Under the pieces are notes generated by a model. That model was not told the origin of the DNA. It searched no databases and saw nothing but the letters and a program-made list of their open reading frames with translations. Positions 1-58,442 of a stretch of DNA of 64,000 nucleotides are shown piece after piece. This stretch comes from Psococerastis gibbosa (taxonomy: Eukaryota; Arthropoda; Insecta; Psocodea; Psocidae): the NCBI GenBank assembly GCA_963971405.1, contig OZ020487.1, positions 43,559,039-43,623,038 of the forward strand, written 5' to 3'. The first letter of the stretch is position 1. Each line of letters opens with the position of its first letter. The translations under genes and the position numbers were made by a program.

Positions 1-540
1 TTTTGTTATCCTATTGAACACCTAAAACATACCTGAAGGTAGAAATCATCGATAGAAACGTTTCGCAGAAAAATTATTTTTTAGTAATTTTTAATGAAAA
101 TTGAGTTATTTTAATTGTTTTACCCCCAGAAGCAAACTATCAAGGGGCAAGCGACCCCCCGCATTTTGTTAACATTAATAACGACTACAATATATGTGAA
201 TTTAAAAGAAATCATTGTAGCCGTTTTTGAGAAATAATTTTTTTAGACGTTTTTTTGGAGTTTTTTGAAAATAAAACCCCCCAATTGAGTTAGCCCAAAA
301 TAAAAATAAAAGTTCCCGAGGTATGATTATTATAAACCTACATGCCAAATTTAATTTAAATCGACCGAGTAGTTTGCCCGGAAATCAATGAACAGACAGA
401 CAGACAGACATTTCGTAAAAACCACTTTTTTGGTTTCCTGGGACCTCAAAACGTGTAAATCCGTTGAAATCTCGGAATCGAAAATTTCGACCGTCACAAA
501 GCTTTCCTTGTACTACGTACAAATTAGATAGCACGTCACG
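1..540 (+). mobile_element. Family A repeat, copy 1, cut by window start
   Basis: Non-coding interspersed repeat shared with copies near 7.6, 31.1 and 62.4 kb. Landmarks are a run of cagac units near 393-412, a block that includes GAAATCTCGGAATCGAAAAT, and a terminal block ending near a sequence like ACGTACAAATTAGATAGCA. There is no coding frame. The outer end lies before base 1. The complete copies are about 0.8-0.9 kb with related ends (TGCTTTCCAATTTAT-like at both sides), which suggests a non-autonomous DNA element, but I could not prove a target duplication. Confidence 0.75.
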
Positions 541-1354
541 GTACCTCAGACTCAACTCTGAGTCGGTGGGATCATATAACAAAGGTATACGTAGCTAAAT
601 CAATAAGATTTAAGATGATTTAGAGAGAGAAATAGGACGCTCTATCTCGGACTGAAGCTCATGATGCGTTCGCACGTACTAAACCCGTTCAGAACGCCAC
701 TCGAATTCAGATCAAGCCATTTACCATACACCAAATCCCTCAATTATTGCAATATTTGCAATTGCTACACGTATTTCAGTGTGATTTAACGATTCATAGC
801 TGAAAACAGAAAAAATTGGCTGATTGGTATAAAAAATGTGGCTATTTTTTTCAATGATTGGAAGTGATTTTAAGATCGATCCGAAGAAGCTACTAATACT
901 AATAGAACCTTTCTGTGAATACACAAAAGAGTTCAAGGAAAATGTAAATTTGACAAAGAGAGAAAACTGGACTCCCTACCGTCCGTTTTAAAATCAAATT
1001 ACCAATTTCACAAAATTGTAAAGTCATAAATGAGTTGTCAAAAAATTTGAGAAAAGCTCCTTTTAAATGGAATAATATCAATAAAATAAATAAATAATGC
1101 ATTTATTTCCTTCATCCATACATAACAAATAATAGTACAATAGTAAGAGAGTACAAAGGTGGGGACCCTGTAGGTAAATCTGTGATGGGCCCCTATTTAA
1201 TACTGTTTCATACATGGTGCGAATAATGCGAGTTTTTATTTTATCTATAGTACTGCATGTAATAAAGTGAAATAACAAAATAAAATAAAATAAACAGACT
1301 ATTGTACAGTTAACAAAAAATATAAATAAGAAAATTAGGGAAACATTTCCAAAG
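541..1354. other. No gene recognised
   Basis: AT-rich sequence. Short open frames here have no recognisable domain. Around 1078-1115 the minus strand reads like a LINE 3' tail (AATAAATGCATTATTTATTT), so part of this stretch is probably an old 3' untranslated LINE end. Confidence 0.4.
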
Positions 1355-1852
1355 AATTCACCTTCCCTTGGATTATGACATGCAGAAGGTCATACTTATC
1401 GTTCCTCATCACGTGGCCGAAGTATGTTCGGTTTCTGAACCGTCAGCAGCAACTCGGCTTCTATGTCCATTCGACTCAGGTCCTCGACATTAGGGACAAG
1501 ATCTATTTGTAAAGGTTAATGGCCATGGTGTAATACTATTTAACAAAGGGTTAGTTGGACTTACATTGCCTGCTGTGTTAATAGTCATTAGAGGCATGAG
1601 CCTCATAGTCATCGAACAATTAGGGCGGAGCCTATTGTCAGGGGAAGGAGGCGACGTTGCGGGAGTGGGTGCTACTCCCATCATCAGGCTAAGTCCTGAG
1701 AAGGACTGATGGTTTTTGGTCGATTGACTCATCGCTCTTGTATTCTACCCTGAATTCAAGATCTATCCACATTTCAAATGCATTGATTCTGTTGTCCATA
1801 GCTTGGGCCAACGTCCATCCCTCCATATTATAGAACGATAGCTGAATTCCAA
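1355..1852 (-). mobile_element. LINE M relic 1, C-terminal reverse-transcriptase region, split by family F
   Basis: Two minus-strand pieces of one non-LTR retrotransposon protein. Piece 1767-1852 reads NMEGWTLAQAMDNRINAFEM, typical of the segment after the reverse-transcriptase core. Piece 1355-1496 reads RNRTYFGHVMRNDKYDLLHV, the usual GHV-R-KYDLL block nearer the C-terminus. The stretch between them in the 20.6-21.2 kb copy is mostly replaced here by a 250-bp family F insertion. The fragment is dead: it is frameshifted, truncated and has no catalytic core. Confidence 0.8.
1507..1756. repeat. Family F repeat 1 inserted into LINE M relic
   Basis: A 250-bp segment flanked on both sides by CAAGATCTAT (1497-1506 and 1757-1766), which looks like a 10-bp target duplication. 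It shares about 100 bp with 40800-40920 and, in reverse and with an internal deletion, with 46437-46500. Both strands have short open frames, but differences between copies fall evenly on codon positions, so I regard it as non-coding. Confidence 0.6.
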
Positions 1853-1946
1853 TAATTGTGACCTATGTCATGCCAGCGAGATCTCTCTAAATATTTTAAA
1901 TTAACTGCAGAAGGCAGCGGTTGCGAATGTTTGTGAATAAGCCATA

Positions 1947-2183
1947 AGCCCGTAGGAAATTGGCAGCCCGAAATTTAATACTTTTTATTTTTTATTTAAT
2001 TAACTAAGCATGTTATTAAAGATTTGGCTCATCAAAGTTGTAGAAGACAACTTCATGCATCATATAATAAGACATTTTTAGTTTTCGAAATTTTAGTTTA
2101 TTTATAAAATCGATAATACGTGAAAAGTTATTGTTTATAAAATATTTGCATGTTTATGAAAAAACTACAATTTCCTACGGGCT
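1947..2183. mobile_element. MITE-like palindromic element with AGCCCGTAGGAAATT ends
   Basis: AGCCCGTAGGAAATT at 1947-1961 is matched in reverse complement at 2169-2183. The 207 bp between are AT-rich and non-coding. The interior block around 2035-2080 (AGTTGTAGAAGAC and onward) resembles 63672-63715. The superfamily is not assignable because no clear target duplication is visible. Confidence 0.6.
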
Positions 2184-2295
2184 GTACACTCCTAACGTGG
2201 CATTTGAAATGCCGATAAAAGACACTATACATCCTCAGGAATTGGTTGATTTCGAAATCAAGATAACTAATCGTCAAGCACTGATTCTCTTCTTC

Positions 2296-2321
2296 ATAGA
2301 ATAGAATAGAATAGAATAGAA
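2296..2321. repeat. Pentanucleotide microsatellite (AATAG)n
   Basis: About five units of AATAG in tandem. Confidence 0.85.
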
Positions 2322-2538
2322 AGTCTATATTGCTTGTGTCAAAGTTCATCAACGGTCATAGCAACATAGCAACCCTAATTCATAATAAGAATTAGAAAAA
2401 GTAACCTGAATAGAAAGCAAGAAACAGCACCAGATGAACATTCGTACTTCGGACTCCCGTCAATGTGCAATTAATCAAAAAACATCCCTTAACCCTCATA
2501 AGATCTGCGCAACACCTCCATCACTTATTAAAACCACT

Positions 2539-2553
2539 CCCCCCCCCCCCCCC
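2539..2553 (+). repeat. Poly-C tract, 15 nt
   Basis: Uninterrupted C run, one of roughly eighteen poly-C/G runs of at least 10 nt in the window (see findings). Confidence 0.95.
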
Positions 2554-2731
2554 GTCACTGATCCCTCTCTCCTTCACAATTTTGAGGATATGCTCCGGGG
2601 AATATGTTTATGACAACCCATTCTCTCCCCTCCCCCACAATTTCTGCCAGTTTTTGTCTGTTTGTTCTTTCTCTGGGGAAACGGTAATTTGACAAAGGCA
2701 GGAAGTTATTACCCCGTCTTTTAAATAAACC

Positions 2732-3235
2732 GGAGGCGCTGTTGGAAGAAACTGCATAATGTTTAAGTCGATACTTGCTGTATCATGGTATTTTCTCGCA
2801 TTATTTCGTCAGTTTCTTTTGAGAAGCTACCAAGAGCTACCACATTTACGAATATGCTAATTACAGCTCTATATACGAGTTTATTATCATACACCTTTAC
2901 TTGTCTATATACTTCATCAAAAATATTATTAGGTGCTTTGTTCGCAACCCTGCAAAACTAGCAACAACAACAACTAAAAAAAACTGGAGGCGCTGTTGGA
3001 AGAAACTCCAAAGTGTTTAAGTCGATATTTGAGCTACCAAGAGTTACTATATTTTCAAATATGCCAATTACAGCTCAATTTATTATAATTACACCTTTCC
3101 ACGTGTCCCAGCTTTTTGCATAGTTATCAAGAGAGGACAGGCTTTTAATGTACATGTCTCAAATCATACTATATTATTAGATTCTGTCACAATCATGCAA
3201 AAACTTCAAGCTAGCGTCAATAACAACCAGTTATT
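2732..3235. repeat. Two-unit direct tandem duplication, period about 254 bp
   Basis: GGAGGCGCTGTTGGAAGAAA occurs at 2732 and again at 2986. It is followed in both by GTTTAAGTCGATA, later by a GCTACCAAGAG block, an AATTACAGCTC block and an ACACCTTT block in the same order. The units have drifted by many substitutions and small indels. No coding frame spans them. Confidence 0.75.
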
Positions 3236-3590
3236 ATAGAAACTAAAAACTGTATACAAACTTGGGGATGATATCCTTGTTAAAAAAAGAGTTTATGAAC
3301 CCGTGTTATCGAAACGTAGCAAAGTTTTAAACAGATGCAAAGCCGAGCACTTTGTTTCGTGTCACGTCTTAAGGAATTGCTTAACAGGCACGACAACGTA
3401 TAAATTGTTTCCCATTGATTTCCTAACGTCTCAAAGCTTAAAATATTTAACTTTCCAAGCTCCCGGCTTCAAGCTGATAAATTAATCCCAAATGGGAGGG
3501 GTAAGCGCGAAATTGGCTTTAGAGAAGACTGCAATTTCTGTAACATATACGATCGTACGTGTCGTAAAACGGGAAAAGCAGCAGTAGAAA
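3236..3590. other. No gene recognised
   Basis: Short frames only. The 60-codon plus-strand frame starting at 3303 has no recognisable motif. Confidence 0.4.
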
Positions 3591-3595
3591 CAATT

Positions 3596-3865
3596 CTTCT
3601 TCTTCTTAATTGTTCTACCAAAGATTGGCGATCATCATGCCAATTTAGTCATGATAACTACACTAGAAAATTGGGAAATTGTAATGTAGCAATTTCCCGT
3701 TGCCTTCTGCATCCTTATGCCGTTGACTCTTCATTGATACAACCCCAGGACACAAGAGAGCCTCGCACAGAAGGCTCTGTTTTTCGTTTATCCCGCGGCT
3801 CAAACTTGGTCCCCTATCTATTCAGTTGCCATCTTCACCATAGGGAGGTACAAATTAGGGATTTT
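3596..3865 (-). mobile_element. SINE family N, copy 1
   Basis: Minus-strand element with a 3' (AAG)n tail at 3596-3606. Its body contains GAAGAGTCAACGGCATAAGG and GCAGAAGGCAACGGGAAA, shared with 23995-24240 and in diverged form with 51235-51480. Just before the tail is a GCCAATCTT-GATA-like block that LINE M copies also carry. No head promoter is clear, so the class call rests on tail sharing and copy structure. Confidence 0.6.
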
Positions 3866-3967
3866 CACGTCTTTGTCTTTGAGACCATTAGGCATTCCTC
3901 AGAAGCTACGTGGAAGAGACAGTAAAAAAAGTTAATAAAAATGTCTGCTAAATTTATCGTAAGAATA

Positions 3968-4455
3968 GAGGTCTTCACAGCGTTGGTGTTATCGAGTTAG
4001 ATGTGCTATCCACGTTAACACACAATCGTGAGTGTACCTCGGGAGTGAGTTATCATGCTATATTTAACAGGGTAAACAACGTGGTAGTAGTCAGACGTTC
4101 GTGGCACGGTTTTAAATGAAGTGGCAGAACTCTATTCTAGTGCCACATTTGTTTATATTTTTTGTTCATTTTGGTTCTTATAATTTTAAGTGTTTACGGT
4201 AATTGCTTGTGATAATAGATTATACAAATAAATTTAAATACTACAAAATTTTAAACGCGTGTTTCAAATCAATCAACAAAAATAAAGATGGCGGCGGTCA
4301 AACCTGAGCTATAGCAAGGTAAATAACACGTTAACCAACTTGAAAGTGCGTTTAGGATAGCACGCTGGTTAGCTTGGTTATCGGTGTGTTAACTTAACTT
4401 GATATAACACACATAACTAGGTATAACTCGATAACACTAACACTGTGAAGACCTC
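3968..4455. mobile_element. Palindromic MITE, TA-flanked, GAGGTCTTCACAG ends
   Basis: GAGGTCTTCACAGCGTTGGT at the left end is matched in reverse complement at the right, followed on both arms by GTTATCGAGTTA and later by GTTAACACAC blocks. TA dinucleotides directly flank both ends (3966-3967, 4456-4457), as in Tc1/mariner-type elements. The 488-bp interior has no transposase frame. Confidence 0.75.
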
Positions 4456-4479
4456 TATTACACCTATAGAATACCCTGT

Positions 4480-4565
4480 CAGTCAAGTCCCCTTCTCCCT
4501 GACATGAAGGAGTCTGGCGTTAAGGTGCCTTAAGAAATGCTGAAAGCAGGTTAGAAAAAAAACAC
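4480..4565 (+). mobile_element. SINE-1 fragment (3' part)
   Basis: Matches the 3' third of SINE-1: CCCTGTCAGTCAAGTCCCCT, a diverged GAAGGAGTCTG block, and AGAAATGCTGAAAGCAGGTT before an A-rich end. It is 5'-truncated and more diverged than the full copies. Confidence 0.7.
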
Positions 4566-5478
4566 CGATAGAGTCGTCTTTAGAATTACTACCATTACGT
4601 AAAATTACCATTAATACCTTTTTCATGTAACTCGTATTTTTAACAATAGTTTATATATGTATATTTTATGCACACAAATGCAAATTTAGTTCGAATTTTG
4701 TATATAATTAATTTGGAATTATTTACTCAAAGTAAAGTAAGAATCATCGCGAACGCGTCCAAAGAAGATTATTTTGAATTCAAAGAACGGAAGGAGCGTT
4801 TCAAGAATTCTAGAATTAAAAAAATAAAACTTTCGAATGAAAATATCGTCAAATCGCAAATGAACAATAGATGATTAAGTTTTAATTGGCAAAATCATTT
4901 ATTCCCGGTCGGTTAGTACGCTATTGCATGTGTTCCTAACAAAGGCCAGCAGAGTTCATTATTCCGCAGGTGCTTAGCCCCATTCAACAGAGCATTCAAA
5001 CTAATGAGACAATGCGTGGCTTCGCGATTTCCTGCCTATTGTATTCAACAGGGAAAATTGCAGACGCACGATAGTACATAAAATGGAGGCCGGCTCATTG
5101 TACAAAACAAAGATGAAGTTAAATTAGTGGCGAGAAGTAATTAGGCATTTCTATCGTATGTGGTAAACATTGTTAAAGGGACAGATTTCAAAATATTTTG
5201 TCAACAAGAACGGGTCGTGGATTTTTGACGAAATTAATTAATTTCTCGTTCCACAGCCGGATTTTGCATTTTATTGGACTTTAGGTCTGTTGGCAAATAA
5301 ATGATTATTTATTTATTTTATTTATTTAACATGAAAGTTATTATAAAGTTGTTTAAAAAAAAAAAACCTTCGATTTGTAGATAACTCAAGTGTATGCCCT
5401 AAGCCTTATTTTTTTTTAACAAAAAAGGTTAATCGCACACAAACAATTTAATGAATGTATCCGATTGACCTATTCTAA
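4566..5478. other. No gene recognised
   Basis: AT-rich. The plus-strand frame 4668-4874 (68 codons, Lys/Arg-rich) has no recognisable domain. Near 5290-5330 the plus strand ends in AATAAATGATTATTTATTTA, resembling a LINE 3' tail. Confidence 0.4.
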
Positions 5479-5619
5479 GGCGGTGTTTCCACAAACGTCA
5501 ATCGTCAATGAGAAATGTGAAATTGAAGGTTTAGCAGACATTAAAGACATACTAAAAATTCTGCTACCACGTCAAAACCATATTTCTCATTGACGATTGA
5601 CGTATGTGGAAACACCGCA
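5479..5619. mobile_element. Family Q palindromic MITE, copy 1
   Basis: A foldback element of 141 bp with ends GGCGGTGTTTCCACAAACGT and its inverted counterpart. Both sides are flanked by TAA (5476-5478, 5620-5622), a 3-bp target duplication typical of PIF/Harbinger elements. The central half carries CTGCTACCACGTC, the complement of the GACGTGGTAGCAG module found in families Q and P. It is almost the exact reverse complement of the copy at 32992-33132, which suggests recent spread. Confidence 0.85.
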
Positions 5620-5651
5620 TAAGTAACCTAATAGGTGCTTGTGGCGAGTTA

Positions 5652-5852
5652 TAGTCCACGCAAAATGAGAAAAGTATGGACATGGAATGTTTTGATCCTG
5701 TCCAACACTGTAAAAATATTCCTTGCACCATTTTGTGTTACCTTGTTGCATTGGATGCAAGGCATAACAAAAATTGTGCTAAGAATATTTTTACAGTGTT
5801 GCACAGGGTTAAAACATTCCATGTCCATACTTTTCTTATTTTGCGTGGACTA
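5652..5852. mobile_element. Long foldback element, TA-flanked
   Basis: A near-perfect 201-bp palindrome with arms of about 90 bp. It starts TAGTCCACGCAAAATGAGAA and ends with the inverted counterpart. TA flanks both ends (5650-5651, 5853-5854). The 99-codon frame read across it is an artefact of the hairpin. Confidence 0.8.
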
Positions 5853-5949
5853 TACAACACGCCTGCATGACACCATGGCATGTAGACACATGCACGCTAA
5901 GACCGACGATACCCAACATTTTACTACTTGTTGATGAAGCAGTAGAATC

Positions 5950-7414: not shown

Positions 7415-7601
7415 GGGTTTAGTCATTGCTTGAGACGGTAGTACAACTTACTTACGCTGCAAGTTAAGCCTCTCCACAAGATAACGACTCATGCTCCGTC
7501 CAGCGCTAACCCAGTTATGTTTATCTTACCTGAAAATAAAGTTAAAGATCAATTTATTTTAATTAAGAGACGAGACATAGAGTAACAGGTTTAGCCATTT
7601 T

Positions 7602-8478: not shown

Positions 8479-8616
8479 ATCCGCGTCAGGCGAACTCAGC
8501 ATGATTGGAGGAATGTAGAAAAGAAACGAAAGAATATTATCTTTATTTTCTATATGGGCGTATATAAATATAAATATTGTATAAATGACCCCACAAGAGA
8601 AATACATTTTTACTGA

Positions 8617-9000
8617 GGCGCCCATTCCACCGACCGGCTAGGGCTATTTACAAAAACGGTGACGTGGTAGCAGACATTCAAGACTTAGGCGGGGTTTCCA
8701 CCGACCTCGCATTGCTGAATTGACGGAAATGTTTATTTTCCTCTATGTCATAGTAAAAATTGATCAATGACCATACAGTAAAATCACAAACAAACAAACT
8801 AAAATTAAAAAATGGCGTCATGGGATATGTTAAGTACAAACATTTTAATAGATTTCTATAAAAAGAAAAATTCTAATTTCCGTCAATGTCATTTGCATTC
8901 TGCAATGCGAGGTCGATGGAAACCCCACCTAAGTCTTGAATATCTGCTACCACGTCACCGTTTTTGTAAATAGCCCTAGCCGGTCGGTGGAATGGGCGCC
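8617..9000. mobile_element. Family P composite MITE, copy 1
   Basis: A 384-bp element with perfect GGCGCCCATTCCACCGACCG ends and TGA on both sides (8614-8616, 9001-9003). Each outer arm is 69 bp and carries GACGTGGTAGCAGACATT 44 bp from the end. The outer arms meet at TA (8686-8687, 8930-8931), between which lies a 242-bp inner palindrome starting GGCGGGGTTTCCACCGACCT. Outer arms plus one TA total 140 bp, the length of family Q. It is non-autonomous: no transposase frame. Confidence 0.85.
8688..8929. mobile_element. Inner palindromic element of family P (copy 1)
   Basis: Left end GGCGGGGTTTCCACCGACCT, right end its inverted counterpart with one difference, with TA at both junctions. The ends resemble family Q ends (GGCGGTGTTTCCAC). 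The interior contains a TTTCTTTTTATAG-like block and no frame. The same 242-bp inner unit is in the 44.6-kb copy, and a 250-bp version is in the 56.8-kb copy. Confidence 0.75.
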
Positions 9001-9329
9001 TGACTAACAGTCCACAAAGTGTAGACCCGCAGTCGTCCAATAGTTTAGATACTAACCTTGACTTTATTAGCAGCCATCTTAGGTACCGTAACATATTGAG
9101 ACAGAAGAGCTCCTTATAGCAGTGGGGAGCATTTAATTGAGTGATCTATGTTGGATTCCGAGAGTGAAATCGCAGACATTTCCACGATAAACGACCGAAC
9201 TTTACATTAATAGTTGATTCAAGCCCACTAAAGAAGACAGATTGCGTGTAAACCTCCATCAATTTCAGTCAGGGGATGCAAGTCAGGAACAGACACTTTC
9301 AAACTATGTTTTTGTCCCGCCAAAATTTA

Positions 9330-9612: not shown

Positions 9613-10442
9613 CTTGAGTCTACGGCCACACGAGCATGTTTTTTTCACGCAGTAATAGTAGCTTCTTTTCCCGCTGCTTGAAGTCTGAAGGCTCCTTACC
9701 TTTTATACGCCTTCAGAAAAGGCAGCCAAACTGTGTTAGTAACGGCTACATACTATTTATGATAATGTAGGGAAGCATTTCCTCTACATCACTCTATGAT
9801 CGATATTTCATGAGAAATTCGACTTTGTAAAAAACAAAAAACGCATAATGGAGATGTTAAGCCATAATATAAAAAAAACTGCTCTTATAATTCAGAAAAC
9901 GGAAAACAATTAATTTTCCAAAATCAAGCAAAAAGCGAAGAAAGGGAAGGAAGTTATTAAAATAAACTCTCTCACAATGGTATTGAATGACTAAAAACTG
10001 GTCGACTTGTATTATTTACGCCTTTACAACACAAAACCGTCTTTTTCGCGTAATATAATTTCCCCGGAAAGAGCCTGTAATCCTCTTTCAGTCTCTATCT
10101 TCTACCCTCGGAATATTCACACCCTGAGCACGTTTTTTCTGTTTTCGTTAGGTAAATTCATAAAAAAAAATATAGAGGTGCTTGTAGAAATAAAAGAATT
10201 TTATGGTAGAGTGAAATTTTTGGTTAGGCGTCAAGGATGTTAGGTTTGTTTGTGGAGGACGTTTTTGCAGCACTTCTCTCGCCGAATAAATTTATTTAGC
10301 ACTTCTAACCGAAAGTGGATGAGGAAAAAAAAAATTAAAATTCTGTCTATTCTATTGTACGCTACGCAATTTTTTTTACAATTAATGTTCAATTAATATT
10401 TATGTTCCTCTCCTATCCTAGTACATGTTATATGCTACGGTA
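9613..10442. other. No gene recognised
   Basis: AT-rich. The 78-codon plus-strand frame 10007-10243 has no recognisable motif. Confidence 0.4.
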
Positions 10443-10535
10443 TACAACTCAACACAGGTACTAACCTACAGAAGCGACTGAAGAGGTCTATCACATCCAT
10501 TGATTAAATTGTATGTATGCGATTAGACCTTTATA
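10443..10535 (+). mobile_element. Family J fragment 2
   Basis: Begins CAACTCAACACAGGTACTAA, continues with GAAGCGACTGAAGAGG and ends in the GTATGTATGCGATTA block, in the same order as the longest copy at 36563. Confidence 0.65.
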
Positions 10536-12728
10536 AAAATGGAATGTACTTTATAACATAAGACGTATTAACTTAAATAAAATATCGCTGCTTCGGATGA
10601 AAAAGGACACACCTCTAAATCTATCTATCTACAGAAATTGAAGTTAAAGTTTTTTTCCCGCCAAATTCAGCTGCCCTCGTGCGGACAATGTACACACTAC
10701 ATTAACACCGTTTTTCTAGCAAAATACAGATAAAAAAAAATATATTTTAGCGTTATTAAGTCGAAATCCGACAAATTTTGAGTTGTGTCTTTTTATTCCG
10801 AATTAGCGATATATAAGCCCAACCTATGTTATACATTATATATATTATGCAGGGGTGGAGAATACCTACTGTCCTCTTATCTGAGTTCTCATAGGTACAC
10901 TGAATTATTTTCAATAGGCCTTACAATTATACGAAAACTATTTTTGCGACATTTCTAATGGAACGATTTTATAAAATTGAAAATCTATTAAAAGCACAGT
11001 TATACATTTTATCAGGTTCACCGGCACCAGCAGAGGCATATCCTCAGAATATTAAAAAATTAATAACCGGCGTATATTTCAGTAATTGCCCATAAAGTAT
11101 TTTTAAAAGCTGTAACCGCAGGCAATTTCCCCATTCACCTCACCTCATGTAACGGATAAAAATTACTGGAAAGCCCGTACCCCCTTTTTCACTAATTGTG
11201 ATGTAAAAGCTTTGAAGGATCACATACAGTATAATAAAGCTGTGGAACTACATACAGTACTGGAGTGGCAAAGCTTTATTATACAGTAAATCACACAGTT
11301 CCGTGATTTTCTCAGAATAATGCATCATGGTAAACAAAGCGAAAATTGAAAACATCAGCAGTGTATTCAATATACTGCTAATATTCGATGGCCTCAATGG
11401 CCGAGCAAATGATTGAAATTGCCAGAAACCTATCGGGCCTGTCACACTTGCTGGTCAGATTTGGTTATTGTGTCAGGTGGTTATTGAGTTGCTGGTGAAA
11501 GTCGTAGTGTAGTGGATAACGATCTGTAATTTCGTTAAGAGGATATGCTACGTAGAAAATTAGCACCCCAAAAGTCGGGTAGTACGCTAATTTATGTATT
11601 AAATTTATTAAATAAAGAAATCATGGAGCTGGAATAAGTTTCAATATTAAACCAGTTGTTTCCAACGAAGACTCCACTCATAAAAAAAGTTATATATACC
11701 TAATAATATACAATAGATAGAGTTTACCACGAAATAATAATAAAAAAAAATTAGATACTTGACTGAACTCGAAAATATCTTAAAAGTTGAGCTTATCAAT
11801 ATGGCTAAGCTTGGAAAAGTTTGAACTTGAAACACTCTGTTCCCCGTTATCAATAAATGATTAAATTTTTTTCTTGCTTAACTTTCGCTTATCAACTTTG
11901 CCTCAACTTTCGCTCTCCATCCAGTGCTCGATGATTAAATTCATAATTATTTTGCAATGGAAATAACTTTTCTTTTATAAGTTCCAAGTACTTTTTGTAA
12001 ACCATTAAGGTTGGTTTGTAACCCAATTCCCTTATTTATGGGGGTATAGATGGACTATCACAAAACCAATGAATAGAATATGAATGTATAATATAAACAG
12101 TATTGGTAGTTCTAATGAATGAACTGACACGACGCGACGCTGCCGCAGCAAATATAAATATACACAGCAAAATATAAACATATTGCCCAAGAAACAAACA
12201 TTAAAATGAACAAGTTTTAAGTTTGAAATCCGTATATTAAGAATCATAAATAATAATAATAAAATAATTGGTTACAAACGTGGCCAACTCCATTTTTTTT
12301 ACAAAATGGGGTTTTGATCCGACCTTGCAGAAAATTTTAATATCCACCTGCACGTTGTAAAATAAAGTGAAAAAAAGCAGCCAGATTGCGCACAGAAGCG
12401 TTGAGAAGTCTAGGGTTAGCTATAAACTTAATGCAATTTTCAACAGAAAATCCACTCTCCTGAAAAATTCTACAACTTGGAGATGGTCATGTTTGTAAAC
12501 AGCCTCCTCAATTTCTCTGAATCTAAGGCAGAAAAAATTAAGAAAATCACCAAAAATATAGCCTAAGATCATTTAATTTTTTAAATAGACACAATTTGAA
12601 TTTTCCGCGCTTAGCACTCTTGCGACGATTAACAAGATCAAAAATTAAAAAATTCTGAAACTCACTGTTCATTTATAATTTTAAACAAATGAATTAATAC
12701 CATCACGTGACAAGACATTAGATTAACC
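10536..12728. other. No gene recognised; one small hairpin
   Basis: AT-rich, unassigned. At 11227-11287 a hairpin is visible: ACAGTATAATAAAGCT and, 27 bp later, AGCTTTATTATACAGT. The frames at 11248-11445, 11647-11853 and 12032-12247 (minus) show no domain. None has splice-flanked coding character that I can defend. Confidence 0.4.
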
Positions 12729-12899
12729 CAAGGCCGTGCCCAGGTTTTGATTTCGGGGGGGTCCAAATTTTTTTAATGTAATTTATCAAAGAATTTAAGG
12801 ATAAATTCTTTAAACCATACAGGTTTACATACAAAAATTTAATTCGGCGGGGGGGGGGGGGGTCCGGACCCCATGGACCACCCCCTGGACACGGCCATG
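12729..12899. mobile_element. hAT-like MITE, family S, copy 1
   Basis: Element with ends CAAGGCCGTGCCCAGG and inverted CATGGCCGTGTCCAGG, flanked by GATTAACC on both sides (12721-12728, 12900-12907). An 8-bp duplication and a CAAGG-type end fit the hAT superfamily. It carries a 14-nt G run at 12849-12862. Only 171 bp, with no transposase. Confidence 0.85.
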
Positions 12900-13239
12900 G
12901 ATTAACCCATCGCCATGATCGGGCTGCTGGTAGAGTAGCCTAAGTCGCCAACGATAAAGCCGATTTTCATTCATTCATTCAAACTTTCAAACTACTTATT
13001 ATCTAAAACCAAAACAATATACAAACTGCATTACAATTAATTGACAATAATCACGTCAAATGAAACTACAAAGTCACATCTTGAAAATTAGCAACTCATC
13101 ATTTAAAACCTACTCAGTGTCAAAGTTTCATCATGAATGCCTAGCCTTATAATACGGTATAATCAAGTTAACTCGAGAAACTCGAGTTTAATGAAGTAAT
13201 ATTTAGCCGAGTCGGGTTAATCAGTGCATGAGCTGACTC

Positions 13240-14275
13240 GGTGTAACTCGTGTGGTTCTGGTTACCAACTTGTGTTCGTTTCTCAGACATCCCCAATAAT
13301 TTAAAGGTTGATTTTCAAATTTGCAACACATTTCGGTGTGTTGACTTTGTTCCTCCACCTTAAGGTTTGTCTAAAGAGTAACTGTGCAGGTAGTAGGAAC
13401 ATAAATCTATCCACCCGCACGATATCATACGTAATTTTGCTGGTAGTGTATAAATAGTGTGGTTCAGGTTATACCAACTTGTGTTCATTTTCGAGACGTC
13501 GTCTGGATGATAATGTAAAGTTTGCGATATATCTCAGTCTGTTGACTTTGTTCAGTTCCTCACCCTTTTCGTTCGTCTAAAGAGTAAATATGTGGGTAGA
13601 TAAATAGATAAATAAATCCATCCACCCACGCAAAATCATAGGTACTATTGTACTAGGTAGATACTGCAGAACTAGTGCGGTTTCACAGTTCTGGTTACCA
13701 ATTTGTGTTCGTTTCTCAGCTCAGCTGTCACCTTATACTAATGAAGTTTGCCTAAAGAGTAACTGTATAGGTAGTCGGTAAATAAATCTATTCATCCGCG
13801 CACTATATCATAGGTAATTTTGAAGGTAGTGTAGAACTAGTGCGGTTCTGGTTATACCAACTTGTGTTCATTTCTCAGATATCGCCCGATAGCAGAAAGG
13901 TTGTTTGTTCAGTTCCTCACCCTTTTGATTAGTCTAAAGAGGAACTGTGTGAGTAATGGGTAAATAAATCCATTCATCCGCATAAAATCATAGGAAATAT
14001 TGCACTACGTAGATACTGCAGAACTAGTGCGATTCTACAGTTCTGGTTACCAACTGGTATTCGTTTCACAGCTTAGACGTCGCCCGATACAATGAAGGTT
14101 GCTTAGGAAATTTGCGACACATTTCGGTCTGTTGACTTTTCTTCAGTTCCTCCCTCACCTTTCTCGTTTGTCTAAAGAGTAACTGTGTAGGACTGTAGGT
14201 AATATGTACATAAATCCATTCAACCTGCACGAAATTGTAGATAATGTAGAACTATTTTACAATTCACTTCGGAAA
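13240..14275. repeat. Decayed tandem array, five units of about 175-235 bp
   Basis: TTCTGGTTACCAACTTGTGT-like blocks recur near 13255, 13463, 13696, 13852 and 14041. Each is followed by a CTAAAGAGTAACTGTG-like block (near 13373, 13577, 13752, 13936, 14172), then TAAATCTATCCACCCGCAC and an ATCATAGGTAATTTTG block. Units differ by many substitutions and indels, so this is an old minisatellite or satellite. No frame spans units. Confidence 0.85.
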
Positions 14276-29513: not shown

Positions 29514-29649
29514 AAAATTAGAGGATTTAGAAAAACTGGGCTTGGCAGGATTCGAATCCACGATCCAGCGGTCAAGACGACGCCCCGGTTAGGCGTGGAT
29601 CGTGGGTTCGAATCCCGCCAAGCCCAGTTTTTCTATATCCTCTAATTTT
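29514..29649. repeat. Hairpin of two opposed tRNA-3'-half-like segments
   Basis: Arms of 53 bp (29514-29567 and 29597-29649) are inverted copies with about three differences, separated by 29 bp. Each arm contains a B-box-like GGTTCGAATCCC or GGATTCGAATCC facing outward after GGATCGTGG, as in the T-arm of a tRNA, followed by GCCAAGCCCAGTTTTTCTA. The element is either a head-to-head tRNA-derived repeat or a foldback transposon that captured tRNA sequence. No complete cloverleaf can be drawn from either strand. Confidence 0.7.
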
Positions 29650-32639: not shown

Positions 32640-33370
32640 CCTGATAAGGAAATATCATTGTTACAAACTAGAAAGAACGTTGGCATTAAATAATATTACC
32701 GTCAGTGCCAGGATAATTTGACGAAGCTTTTAAATTAATTTTTGGCGGGATAACATGATGAAAACACAATATGATCATACCGACATCTTTGTTTTCGGGC
32801 TTCTAACAACGACTGTTGCTCATAATAAGGAAATATAATTGTTTCAAAATGGAAAGAACCTTTCGATTAAGTAACTTTATCGTCATTATAATGTGTTAGA
32901 AAGACAATTGAAAAATGGGCAATGTAATGTTTTGTTTATTTACGAGTGAATGCGTGTCACTAGTGTTTCTTCTGATGTATATATCTGAATAGGCGGTGTT
33001 TTCACATACGTCAAACGTCAATGAGAAATATGGTTTTGACGTGGTGGCAGAATTTTTAGTATGTCTTTAATGTCTGCTAAACCTTCAATTTCACATTTCT
33101 CATTGACGATTGACGTATGTGGAAACACCCCAATACACGGTGGCGTGGTGCGAGCTATTATACAAATATGGTTGCCGAATGCCGGTCGTAGTACGCGAAG
33201 TGATGTTATTGTCGTTTTAACGGATTAAAAATTATACGCTTTTGCTCTGTTAATTAAAACTTCTACTTTCATTCGAACATAACGATTATAATGCAAGGAT
33301 ATTTAAATGTAGAACATTTGAACTCGGGTTTAAATTAATTTTCGTTGGGATACCATCCTCAAATAAATAA
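32640..33370. repeat. Decayed tandem repeat with period about 180 bp, interrupted by family Q
   Basis: ATAAGGAAATATCATTGTTA followed by AGAAAGAACGTT is at 32645. ATAAGGAAATATAATTGTTT followed by GGAAAGAACCTTT is at 32824. TTTAAATTAATTTTTGGCGG at 32730 is answered by TTTAAATTAATTTTCGTTGG near 33330. Unit order is broken by a family Q element at 32992. Confidence 0.55.
32992..33132. mobile_element. Family Q palindromic MITE, copy 2
   Basis: A 141-bp foldback element with GGCGGTGTTTTCACATACGT at the left and an inverted GGGTGTTTCCACATACG-type end at the right. ATA flanks both sides (32989-32991, 33133-33135). Carries the GACGTGGTGGCAG module. Nearly the reverse complement of copy 1. Confidence 0.85.
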
Positions 33371-37236: not shown

Positions 37237-38135
37237 TACGTCTTTAAATCTTAAATCTCTTCTTCTTCTGCTGCTTCTCCTTACTCTACTACAACTACTA
37301 CTACTACTTCTTCTTCTTCTACTACTACTTCTTTTCCTTCTTCTTCTGTGTCCTTCCTAGTGCTGGGGGTCTCCACAGGTCCATCTCTTATACTCCACTC
37401 GGTCTGTCATCATCACATTCATAAAAACTATTGTTTGAGGGGGTACGTCTTTAAAACTTAAATCTCTTCTTCTTCTGCTGCTTCTCCTTACTCTATTACT
37501 ACTTCTTTTCCTTCTTTTTCTGTGTACCTCCTAGTGCTGGGTGTCTCCACAGGTCCATTTCTTATGCTCCACTCGGTCTGTCGTCATCACATTCATAAAA
37601 ACTATTGTTTGAGTGGGTACGTCTTTAAAACTTAAATCTCTTCTTTTTCTGCTGCTTCTCCTTACTCTACTACTACTTCTTTTCCTTCTTCTTCTGTGTC
37701 CCTCTTAGTGCTGAGGGTCTCCACAGGTCCATCTCTTATACTCCACTCGGTCTGTCGTCATCACATTCATAAAAACTATTGTTTGAGGGGGTACGTCTTT
37801 AAAACTTAAATCTCTTCTTCTTCTGCTGCTTCTCCTTACTCTACTACTACTTCTTTTCCTTCTTCTTCTGTGTCCCTCCTAGTGCTGGGGGTCTCCACAG
37901 GTCCATCTCTTATACTCCACTCGGTCTGTCATCATCACATTCATAAAAACTATTGTTTGAGGGGGTGCGTCTTTAAAACATAAATTTCTTCTTCTTCTTA
38001 CTATTATTATTCTACTGCTTTTTCTTCTTCATCTACTTCTTTACCTTTTTCTTCTGTGTCCCTCTTAGTTCTAGGGGTCTCCTCAGGTCCATTTCTTATA
38101 CTCCACACGGTCTGTTATCAACACCTTCTAAAAAC
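37237..38135 (+). repeat. Tandem array, about five units of 174 bp, pyrimidine-rich
   Basis: TACGTCTTTAAA starts units at 37237, 37444, 37618 and 37792, and TGCGTCTTTAAA at 37966. Each unit holds a (CTT/CTA)n block, CCTCCTAGTGCTGGGGGTCT, CCACAGGTCCATCTCTTATA and ATTCATAAAAACTATTGTTT. The first unit is longer (207 bp) through expansion of its CTT/CTA block. The central units are nearly identical, implying recent homogenisation; the last unit is the most diverged. Confidence 0.9.
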
Positions 38136-39613
38136 CATGGTTTTCTTCATTTTGCCAGCTGTTGAATTCTTTCTTCGAGAATTGTCCTCAATCAGCCGAT
38201 GGGTCCATCATACCTGACCCTTCAGGAGCCTTATTTGAAGTCTCTTCAGTTCATTAGAATACGCCCCTGTGGCCCTGTAGTGAGTTAAGTAAATATATAT
38301 TCCCGAGTGGAGTGTCCGATCGTCTCATACTGAAACTTCTAAAAATCAGTAACAACATAGTACCAAATTTCCCTTAAAAATGTGAAAAAACAACAACAAA
38401 ATTCTCTTTGAGATCATAGAAGTAATCACGAATATGAACACCCCCCCCCCCTCCTCTCCCCATAAATACAGCACTAAGTAACGCGGAGAATCTTGTATAA
38501 GTTTCATTCCAATTTGCATAAAAAATTACTGCGCCAAGTATTATAAAATTGAAAGGGGAAAATTCAGGTATAGGAATATCGCGGACGATCTTTCAGCACC
38601 TTCAGTCACAATGAGGAATGGGAACAGATAAAATGAAATTTCCATTGAAAGAGGAAAATCGTGGGGGGGAAGTGGAGGGGGGAGGGCGTGAGATGAGGGG
38701 TGAAGGTCTCGCGACTTCAAGTACGAATTCAAACTCTCCCCATCAATGATATTTACTATGATAACTTTGTGACTGGATGGAAAATCACACTTTTTAAAAT
38801 GAAATAAAATAACTATTATTACTATATTTTTTTTTAGTAATACAGTACTTAGACAAATTTATTTTATTTTATTTACTATGACAAGTGACTGTGAGCGACT
38901 ATGAGAGAATATCACTGTTTATTGACACACTACTCTTTTATGCAGTTTACTAGTAATTGTCAGTGAGGGCTGCGAAAATTGATTTTTTTTCTCCATTAAA
39001 TGCGATTTTATTATGATGATTATTATAAATAAAATATATATAATGTGTTGCTAACAGACACAGTCCAAAAATGACAATATAAAACATAAAACAATAGCCG
39101 AGAAACAGCAGCAAGCAATACCAGTCATAGGTAGCGTGAATTAGTCGAATTCCCGGTAGATCTTAGGCTTTTATGAAGGAAAATAATTTAGAGGAAGAAG
39201 TAATTGCAATACTCAGCGGGGGGGGGGGGGCCAAAACAGGCTTAAGTGCATACGCCAAAACGTACCCCCCAAGAAGGGAAGGAAAGAAAAGAAAAATTTG
39301 TTATTCGAAAGTTTTGTCCCATCGAGAGTAAAGGTTGAGTTTTGAAACTTCAATCTTTGTCACTGCAACAAATAAGGTTCCCCCATTGGGAAATCTGGAA
39401 ACAAAAAAGAATTTATTGCACCAGCAAATTGCCATGATGGAAACCGTGCTCCTCAGCAATGTTTTCAAAAATACCACGAAGCTGTCTCGTTTCCAGACAA
39501 AAAAGAGTGACTGTATTACAGGAAAATGAGAAAAGCATGGACTTCGATCATTGTGCGATACTGTATACACGCCAATACACTGTTGCCGCGATACCCTGCT
39601 CGGTGTATGAAAT
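38136..39613. other. No gene recognised
   Basis: C run at 38441-38451 and G run at 39218-39230. The frames 38541-38732, 39301-39570 and 39335-39529 overlap on opposite strands and none is recognisable. Confidence 0.4.
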
Positions 39614-43529: not shown

Positions 43530-43785
43530 CAGCCTGATCGAGGCGATTATAATACCGGTATTTATTTAATCCCCTGGTAAACAAGATAATTTTATAATGG
43601 AAAGTGCTATTCAAAATTTGTTTGTTTACAGTTATAATCCTAGGGTATTTATTTAATCCCCTGGTATTAAAAATGTAAACAAGATAATTTTATAATAGAA
43701 AGTGCTATTCAAAATTTGTTTGTTTACAGTTATAATCCTAGGGTATTTATTTAACCCCGGTATTATAATCGCCTCGATCAGGCTG
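43530..43785. mobile_element. Family C MITE, copy 6, with internal duplication
   Basis: CAGCCTGATCGAGGCGATTA at both inverted ends, flanked by CTG on the left and CAG on the right. A core of about 105 bp (GTAAACAAGATAATTTTATA through CCTAGGGTATTTATTTAA) is present twice in tandem, so the element is 256 bp rather than about 170. Confidence 0.85.
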
Positions 43786-44349: not shown

Positions 44350-45109
44350 GCCAACGGCCTTACCAAGTTGAATCCGCAAGAACAGAGCCTGTTCAAAACA
44401 GCAGCAAATTTGGTAGTGTGCACTGCGTTGACAGGGGTACATGCGGGGACATAATAAAGTGCAGAGACTACTAGTCAGTCTAAGTGCGTGTCGAGTCATG
44501 GTCACCTCCGAATTAATTGTGTTACTTTACTATGTTCCCCAAGAGGTTTGGAATCCACTATAATCAAGAGGTCCACCCTGTCAGTCAACCCTTCATCTCC
44601 CCGAGGTGAAGGAGCCTGCCCTTAGGGTGCCTCATGTGAGGCGCCCATTCCATTGACCGGCTAGGGCTACTTCCAAAAACTGTGACGTGGTAGAAGACAT
44701 TCAAGACTTAGGTGGCGTTTCCACCGACCTCGCATTACAGAATGCAAATGACATTGACGGAAATTAGAATTTTTCTTTTTATAGAAATCTATTAAAATGT
44801 TTATACTTAACATATCCCATGACGCCATTTTTTAATTTTAGTTTGTTTGTTTGTGATTTTACTGTATGATCATTGATCAATTTTAACTATGGCATAAAGG
44901 AAAATAAATATTCCCGTCAATTCTGCAATGTGAGGTCGGTGGAAACGCCACCTAAGTCTTGAATGTCTGATACCACGTCACCGTTTTTGGAAATAGCCCT
45001 AGCCGGTCAATGGAATGAGCACCTTATGAAACAGACTCACTCTCCCCGCCAGGCTGACAGGGTTGCTTAGCAGAAATACTGAAAGCAAGCGTTGGAAAAC
45101 AAACAAACA
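44350..45109 (+). mobile_element. SINE-1 copy d, carrying family P composite
   Basis: Head GCCAACGGCCTTACCAAGTT, tail AAAACAAACAAACA. Interrupted at 44640-45023 by a family P element just after GGGTGCCTCATG. The body before and after the insert is collinear with SINE-1 (a few bases are lost at the junction). Confidence 0.9.
44640..45023. mobile_element. Family P composite MITE, copy 2
   Basis: 384 bp with outer arms 44640-44708 and 44955-45023 (69 bp each), TA junctions at 44709-44710 and 44953-44954, and an inner unit of 242 bp. The module GACGTGGTAGAAGACATT lies 43 bp from the left end. Flanks are TGA left, TTA right, so one base differs in the putative 3-bp duplication. Confidence 0.85.
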
Positions 45110-56723: not shown

Positions 56724-57402
56724 GGCCAATGACCTTACCATGTTGAATCCATGAGAGCAGAGCATATGACAAACTGCGGCAAACTTGGTAGTGTGCACAG
56801 TGCTGGCAGGGGAACATGGTGGGACATGTTAGGTGCCCATTCCATTGACCGGCTTGGGCTATTTCCAACAACGGTAACGTGGTAGCAGACATTCAAGACT
56901 TAGGTGGCGTTTCCACCGACCTCGCATTGCAGAATTGACGGAAATGTTTATTTTCCTTTATGCTATAGTTAAAATTGACCAATTATCATACAGTAAAATC
57001 ACAAACAAACAAACTAAAATTAAAAAATGGCGTCATGGGATATGTTATATGTTATAGTACAAATATTTTAATAGATTTCTATAAAAAGAAAAATTCTAAT
57101 TTCCGTCAATGTCATTTGCATTCTGCAATGCGAGGTCGGTGGAAACGCTACCTAAGTCTTGAATGTCTGCTACCACGTCACCGTTGTTGGAAATAGCCCT
57201 AGCCGGTCAATGGAATGGGCGCCATAACGCGCTGAGACTATACCAGTCAGTATATGTGCGTTTCGAGTCCTGGTCACCTCCGAATTCATCGTGTGACTTT
57301 ACCATGTTCCCTAAGGGGTTCAGAATCCACTATAATCAGGAGGTCCACCCTGTCAGGTTGCTTAAAGCAGATATGCTGCAAGCAGGCGTTAGAAACAACT
57401 AA
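56724..57402 (+). mobile_element. SINE-1 copy g, carrying family P composite
   Basis: Flanks CACTTGCAACTTTGC (56709-56723) and CACTTGCAACATTGC (57403-57417) differ at one base. Interrupted at 56832-57223 by family P within GGGACATGATAACG. Part of the SINE 3' region (the CCGAGGTGAAGG segment) is deleted. Confidence 0.9.
56832..57223. mobile_element. Family P composite MITE, copy 3
   Basis: 392 bp. Outer arms 56832-56900 and 57155-57223 are 69 bp each; TA junctions at 56901-56902 and 57153-57154; inner unit 250 bp with a short extra TATGTTA duplication. Flanks TTA and ATA. Confidence 0.85.
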
Positions 57403-58302: not shown

Positions 58303-58442
58303 GGCGGGGATTTCACCAACGTCAATAGTGATATTAAATGTAGTTTTGACGTGGTAGCAGACATTTTTAGTATGTCTTTAATGTCTGCTACCACGTCAAA
58401 ACTACATTTACTATCACTATTGGCGTTGGTGGAATCCCCGCC
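58303..58442. mobile_element. Family Q palindromic MITE, copy 3
   Basis: A near-perfect 140-bp palindrome, ends GGCGGGGATTTCACCAACGT. Flanks TTA and TAA. GACGTGGTAGCAGACATT at 58348-58365, 45 bp from the left end, and its inverse on the other arm meet around a central TA. The 73-codon frame here is a shadow. Confidence 0.85.

Follow-up and report, generated by a model that had tools for sequence, protein, structure and literature searches.

Within a stretch of 64,000 nucleotides of the genome of the insect Psococerastis gibbosa (C12:43559039-43623038; the genome comprises 409 Mb in 68 contigs), hereafter the window, we studied three copies of a composite element, P, in which two mirror-image outer arms enclose an inner unit with inverted ends of its own. 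P is probably a nested composite miniature inverted-repeat transposable element (MITE) with four usable ends, moved by a Harbinger transposase mostly by its two outer ends and rarely by an inner one.

The first copy (384 bp) occupies positions 8617-9000 on the forward strand and is flanked by a 3-bp target duplication, TGA (left copy at 8614-8616, right copy at 9001-9003). Its left outer arm of 69 bp (8617-8685) starts with GGCGCCCATTCC and contains TGACGTGGTAGCAGACATT, and its right outer arm of 69 bp (8932-9000, reverse strand) mirrors the left one. Between them lies the inner unit of 242 bp (8688-8929, forward strand), with ends GGCGGGGTTTCC...GGAAACCCCACC and flanks TTA and TAA. The second copy (44640-45023, reverse strand, 384 bp) has a reversed inner core, a 242-bp inner unit at 44711-44952 on the reverse strand, and flanks TGA/TTA. 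The third copy (56832-57223, forward strand, 392 bp) has a 250-bp inner unit at 56903-57152, likewise on the forward strand, and flanks TTA/ATA. No Rfam matches were found within the window.

All three copies thus shared one layout, in which a 69-bp arm, TA, the inner unit, TA and a 69-bp mirror arm follow each other, and arm complementarity was 92-96% over 104-111 bp, well above chance. This agrees with the original prediction, which had described three copies with 69-bp arms meeting at a TA and an inner unit of 242-250 bp with its own inverted ends, and had placed a shared module 43-45 bp from the end; GACGTGGTAGCAGACATT is indeed preceded by 44 bases in the P arm and by 45 in a palindromic MITE of another family, Q, at 58303-58442. 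The TA is present at the junction as claimed, but a 3-bp TWA duplication fits better, the inner unit having TTA on its left and TAA on its right. We dropped a 2-bp TA duplication because most of the 78 outer flank rows and most of the one-armed copies described below carry 3-bp duplications of TWA type.

The core of the inner unit contains what appears to be the start of an open reading frame (ORF) of MADF type. Read directly from the sequence of copy 1, it encodes MASWDMLSTNILIDFYKKK in 19 codons (8812-8868, forward strand), and MADF ORFs elsewhere in the genome begin MASWDITSTNILINFFQRN (L133; 42.2 bits) and MASWDITSTTILINFFKKN (L134; 33.3 bits), with a score cut-off of 22. Inner positions 31-180 matched the leader and ORF start of L134 at 81%, and L134 is adjoined by a PF13359 match (97.1 bits) at 1.4 kb from the MADF ORF. 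From these matches, the inner unit looks like a classical Harbinger deletion derivative composed of a left end, the leader, the first 19 codons and a right end.

Outer ends, target sites and copy number

Further copies were collected by DNA similarity searches, in which only the best 40 candidates of each query were scored. The resulting 84 composites form a non-random sample: some are the top-scoring matches of the P and inner queries, and the others come from places chosen for an unusual inner flank. Identical outer flanks over 3 bp were found in 49 of the 78 rows, comprising 20 TAA, 17 TTA and smaller numbers of TAT, TGA, TTT, ATA, TAC and CTA. In a further 14 rows the first and last base agreed and the middle base alone differed. 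Mismatches of the middle base took the form TAA/TTA in eight rows and TTA/TAA in five (13 of 78), versus 20 TAA/TAA and 17 TTA/TTA. They seem too frequent for mutation alone, and one idea is that the mismatched base was carried over from the donor site. Similar TTA/TAA and TAA/TTA flank pairs are known as non-matching duplications of the rice element mPing (PMC4561436), and in P they occur at the inner flanks as well as in these 13 outer rows.

The target preference extends beyond the duplication. A C before or a G after TNA was present at 44 of 116 positions (58 sites), against a background of 15.8% at the TWA sites of all DNA collected (p = 7e-9); the outer ends of P prefer CTWAG targets, as do PIF/Harbinger MITEs. 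P also starts with GG and finishes with CC. Duplications of 3 bp, TTA or TAA, are a mark of PIF/Harbinger elements (PMC2213677), and the target preference of Tourist-like MITEs is described as reaching past 3 bp (PMC2836001). Judged by its TWA duplications, its extended target and its GG...CC ends, P belongs to the PIF/Harbinger superfamily as a Tourist-like MITE.

P is abundant in this genome. Initial screening with the P query yielded 2,460 candidates, the best 40 of which each matched over 382 or more of the 384 bases, with 96-100% identity. A pattern count over the whole genome found CTTA directly before an exact inner end at 7,600 places. Counted by eye, 14 facing pairs about 220 bp apart occurred among about 100 listed places with CTTA-flanked inner ends, which implies that about 28% of inner ends are exact; in the 84 composites, 63 of 168 inner ends were exact. 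Combining the number of exact ends with the share of ends that are exact, we estimate, short of a direct count, roughly 10,000-14,000 composites genome-wide, or about 1% of the genome. That the composite spread as one unit, as had been proposed, is borne out by 84 full composites at different sites, most of them with outer duplications.

Use of the inner ends

In most composites, CTTA precedes both inner ends. Free inner ends were sought with patterns that required either TAA (119 places) or TTA preceded by a base other than C (DTTA; 196 places) beside the matched inner end and left the far flank free. We inspected 59 places, 39 of the first kind and 20 of the second. The 39 TAA places comprised 22 composites with a changed flank base (L121 and L127 among them truncated or interrupted), ten one-armed elements with their free end at the match, one element that was one-armed the other way (L123), four truncated copies, one solo inner unit (L079) and one member of another family (L119). 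A large population of solo units behind the TAA-flanked inner ends was rejected, given that 22 of these 39 were composites. Among the 20 DTTA places we found 15 composites, four one-armed elements and one copy with a large insert (L086).

The one-armed elements run from an inner end to the far outer end. In total 15 were found, of which 14 were measured by script, the fifteenth (L081) carrying an insert. Flanks identical over 3 bp were present in nine of the 14, and 12 of the 14 agreed at the first and last base. L098 was scored as a mismatch; on visual reading its flanks are TTA/TTA, provided that its end falls short by one base. L077 is a mismatch. Ten elements retained the arm 3' of the core, and four retained it 5' of the core. 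The solo inner unit, L079, is flanked by TAA on both sides, so that an inner unit standing alone with a duplication, which the original prediction had proposed to look for, does exist in one of the inspected places.

These insertions, one-armed and solo, with their duplications, indicate that the inner ends function as transposon ends. It is highly improbable that they are degraded copies of P, each with an arm deleted and with inert inner ends. Truncated copies do exist among the inspected places (L065, L070, L112 and L113), but the one-armed elements break exactly at the inner end, and identical flanks in nine of 14 stand against a chance of 2.9% each (p = 3e-11). Nor are the one-armed copies one lineage: in a tree built from 99 inner units, they sit on scattered branches. 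In this tree, where many branches have low support, 14 changes were needed to account for the 15 one-armed and solo rows, and a single clade of the 14 one-armed rows was rejected (p = 7e-51).

As a rough extrapolation, free ends of one-armed elements would account for about 70 of the 7,915 exact inner ends, which is near 1% per end. The rate of solo inner units would then be about the square of the per-end rate, and this fits the single case observed.

Origin of the composite

Several observations weigh against P as a nested composite with working inner ends. By the criterion used, 15 of the 78 outer rows lacked a duplication, one of them an artefact with its left end outside its locus, and L079 was the only solo inner unit among the 59 places. 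The inner flanks read TTA/TAA, which is no exact direct duplication, in 32 of the 47 readable cases among the 84 composites; the others were TAA/TAA (6), TTA/TTA (4) or different (5). A genome-wide exact pattern for P without its inner unit (ATTCAAGAC, 0-6 bases, GTCTTGAAT) matched one place, L031 (142 bp), and thus no intact inner-less P. This single match is apparently an internal deletion, in which GGCG from the inner end seems to survive. A 140-bp query made of the joined arms returned single arms only among the best 40 of 341 candidates, a list that omits L031 too and excludes close copies only, so that old and diverged empty outer elements could escape it. Finally, P ends surrounded the transposase gene in none of eight loci (L102-L109, one from each of eight score classes), and no autonomous element with the exact ends of P and both transposase and MADF genes was present among the loci opened.

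How far the pattern search reaches can be judged from the composites themselves. Both of its 9-base blocks were intact in 56 of the 84, and in 17 of the 32 in the subset from L062 onward; hence an empty population of similar age with well over ten copies should have appeared. With L031 as query, only L031 itself and L110 (about 125 bp) matched over the full length among the best 40 of 842 candidates. L031 was rejected as an empty 140-bp element, as its first 75 bases, through TTGGGCG, align to arm-type sequence at many places, and the composite reads TTAGGCG there. L110 was rejected as well; its middle is shortened and asymmetric, and it is apparently also an internal-deletion derivative. The intact empty 140-bp P that the original prediction had suggested searching for was thus missing at the sensitivity used. 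Apart from these two deletion-like elements, the inner-less relatives are more distant, namely Q and L119.

The three Q copies in the window are palindromes of 140-141 bp without an inner unit, as predicted, and lie at 5479-5619 (flanks TAA/TAA), 32992-33132 (right end and duplication ambiguous) and 58303-58442 (flanks TTA/TAA). L119 (C2:40729986-40730666) is a 218-bp palindrome flanked by TAA/TAA that carries the end motif of the inner unit and B-type arms (see below) around a different centre, again without the inner unit; 100 of 117 aligned bases match between its halves.

The missing empty element and the inexact TTA/TAA duplication at the inner flanks would both be expected if P were a single element with long terminal inverted repeats (TIRs) whose end motif had been duplicated inwards, as in some plant Mutator-like elements (MULEs), with no nesting at all. 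MULEs belong to a superfamily other than PIF/Harbinger. Tandem-TIR MULEs have been published (Ferguson and Jiang 2012, PMC3310237) and resemble P in combining external and internal inverted ends in one amplified mobile unit. In these MULEs the likeness between internal and external TIRs extends over at least 100 bp; the internal TIR lacks a recognisable duplication and reportedly did not arise from nesting, and no single-TIR element in the family studied seemed derived from a tandem one. In P, the outer arm and the inner end are alike over their first 20 bp or so and diverge from there, so that a likeness of MULE type over at least 100 bp was not found; the internal ends differ in sequence from the outer ones, are used, and have one-armed derivatives. 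Moreover, the inner unit has a body of its own that includes a MADF-ORF start, the arms have inner-less relatives in L119 and Q, and central insertions of other MITEs occur. We consider an inward duplication unlikely on these grounds.

The nested reading was borne out only in part as first proposed. P as a composite of two related MITEs, with inner ends in use, stood; its origin by nesting is supported indirectly, by the MADF-ORF core, the central insertions and L119, and the intact empty host was not found.

The arms fall into at least two related types. All arm comparisons listed here exceeded the best of 200 shuffles. The arm of the window copies (type A) shared 53 of 69 aligned bases with the B-type arm, and the arm of L031 shared 56 of 66 with B; the B-type arm shared 57 of 68 with L119, and the L031 arm 51 of 63 with Q1. 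The B-type arm together with an inner end had 560 exact matches genome-wide, of which only L140 was read individually. Because A and B arms are equally long up to the inner unit (71 bp), the simplest reading is a single nesting that preceded the separation of A and B, rather than two.

The two arms of a copy resemble each other more than arms of different copies do. Mean arm distance was 0.049 within copies versus 0.089 between copies; outside the main subfamily the values were 0.057 versus 0.112, and inside it 0.045 versus 0.052. Several variant ends were symmetric in the 84 composites (CGGTT/CGGTT 5, GGGAT/GGGAT 4, CATAT/CATAT 2), and others were asymmetric (GGGTT/CGGTT 3). From the smaller within-copy distances and the symmetric variant ends, the arms of P seem homogenised within copies, and this homogenisation may account for the usual TTA/TAA inner flanks.

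One could go further and suppose that gene conversion or hairpin-templated repair made the arms symmetric only once nesting had taken place, in which case the host need not have been a palindrome nor the insertion exactly central. The concerted arms are in line with this, clearly so outside the main subfamily and only slightly within it, and conversion across the flank would turn TTA/TTA into TTA/TAA. Yet Q and L119 are palindromic without any inner unit, and central insertions recur in palindromic elements. We therefore regard late symmetry as a possibility of some weight that is nevertheless rather doubtful.

Central insertions were seen in several palindromic relatives. L110 contains an outer-type element in Q (TTA/TTA), L141 a Q-type element in a Q-type element (TTA/TTA), and L142 an insertion flanked by TTA/ATA; in these three the inserted element is visible end to end, and in L143 and L145, also central, one side only was read. 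L141, L142, L143 and L145 came from a pattern aimed at the central site (seven places) and show recurrence, not preference. The same pattern returned L139 and L144, rejected as P copies with a small arm deletion and no nesting, and L140, rejected as a composite with one B-type arm.

The original prediction had suggested that a central position could come from a preference for hairpin tips, which is possible but unneeded. Between positions 53 and 87 of about 140 lie four of four, three of six and four of four TWA sites in the three Q copies of the window, and the centre of P reads CTWAG. Since TWA targets are concentrated at the centre and the arms offer few, no such preference is necessary.

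Under the nested reading, a palindromic MITE of about 139-140 bp would have received a second MITE of the same superfamily at a central TWA, giving four usable ends. A Harbinger transposase supplied from elsewhere, with a MADF/Myb partner, would usually pair the outer ends and insert the 384-bp unit at TWA, preferably CTWAG, and this pairing would have produced about ten thousand copies. In about one of 100 end choices an inner end would be taken instead: inner with outer would yield a one-armed element and, very rarely, inner with inner a solo inner unit.

Transposases, known systems and significance

PIF elements carry a gene for a transposase and one of Myb/MADF type (PMC9710019). The genome held at least 150 PF13359 (DDE_Tnp_4) matches, many with identical scores, and 113 PF10545 (MADF) matches. 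The region C2:18154500-18159850 (L138, L137 and L134), with both MADF and DDE matches, was considered as a partner and is not claimed, as its ends are related but imperfect and a Q-like piece lies between the genes. A separate class is represented by L106 (C2:47274000-47279000), in which 52-bp perfect inverted ends AAGCTGGGTACAGACTTGAGC, different from those of P, enclose a DDE_Tnp_4 and a MADF match in about 4.1 kb (positions 493-4638). Thirty-six listed PF13359 copies shared the same score of 127.2, and their open frames measured 383-391 aa, a hint that one or more Harbinger families were active recently.

The window contains other repeats as well. Near the Q copy at 5479-5619, a 205-bp palindrome at 5650-5854 with 85-bp arms (92%) and ends TATAGTCCACGC is MITE-like and unclassified. 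A 136-bp palindrome at 29514-29649 with 54-bp arms (94%) carries GGGCTTGGCAGGATTCGAATCC, and positions 29574-29614 match the sequence directly adjoining the L031 element at 83%. Tandem arrays consist of a 174-bp unit repeated 4.7 times (37307-38143) and a 98-bp unit repeated 1.9 times (43577-43765).

Rice mPing and other Tourist-like MITEs resemble P in being non-coding and a few hundred bp long, with 3-bp TWA duplications, an extended target (PMC2836001) and GG ends, and in sharing their genome with genes of DDE_Tnp_4 and MADF/Myb type. P differs from them in consisting of two elements in one with four usable ends and one-armed offspring, its mobilising transposase being putative. Insertions nested inside PIF/Harbinger elements are described from Medicago (PMC2213677); these are individual mosaics, whereas the nested unit of P is the amplified form. 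The composite P-MITE AgaP2-P12 of Anopheles gambiae (PMC1562414) is, like P, built from two MITE families, but has one end from each family and 8-bp duplications, and is not nested. Self-insertion is mentioned in PMC10288884 only as a possible effect on size. In the open-access literature we found no MITE-in-MITE described as having amplified with its inner ends in use; subscription papers mostly fell outside this scope, and the finding is weak evidence of absence. Nested MITEs of rice and maize have reportedly been studied. P would be a variant within a known superfamily, a MITE-in-MITE amplified as a pair with its inner ends in use.

In yeast constructs of mPing, non-matching flanks lowered transposition, and TTA/TAA sites were less precisely repaired (PMC4561436). 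This behaviour suggests, by analogy, a tentative idea for P with a modest chance of being right: P may be a 'locked' four-ended transposon, in which the TTA/TAA inner flanks, with arms symmetrised by conversion, hinder exit of the inner unit, and the outer pair carries both elements. If so, an intact outer element would seldom be restored when the inner unit departs, and one-armed elements would go on arising from rare mixed-end events. Harbinger MITEs of this genome would then have, in central nesting and subsequent locking, a general way of acquiring new bodies and founding new families.

P amounts to a natural experiment in which a transposase is faced with two pairs of ends, one nested in the other. 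A single genome records outer-outer events by the thousand, inner-outer events estimated at a couple of hundred, and very few of the inner-inner kind, with many duplications still readable, so that questions of which ends are chosen, how strong they are and what becomes of nested elements can be addressed by counting. P also offers a route by which MITE families may merge and amplify as composites.
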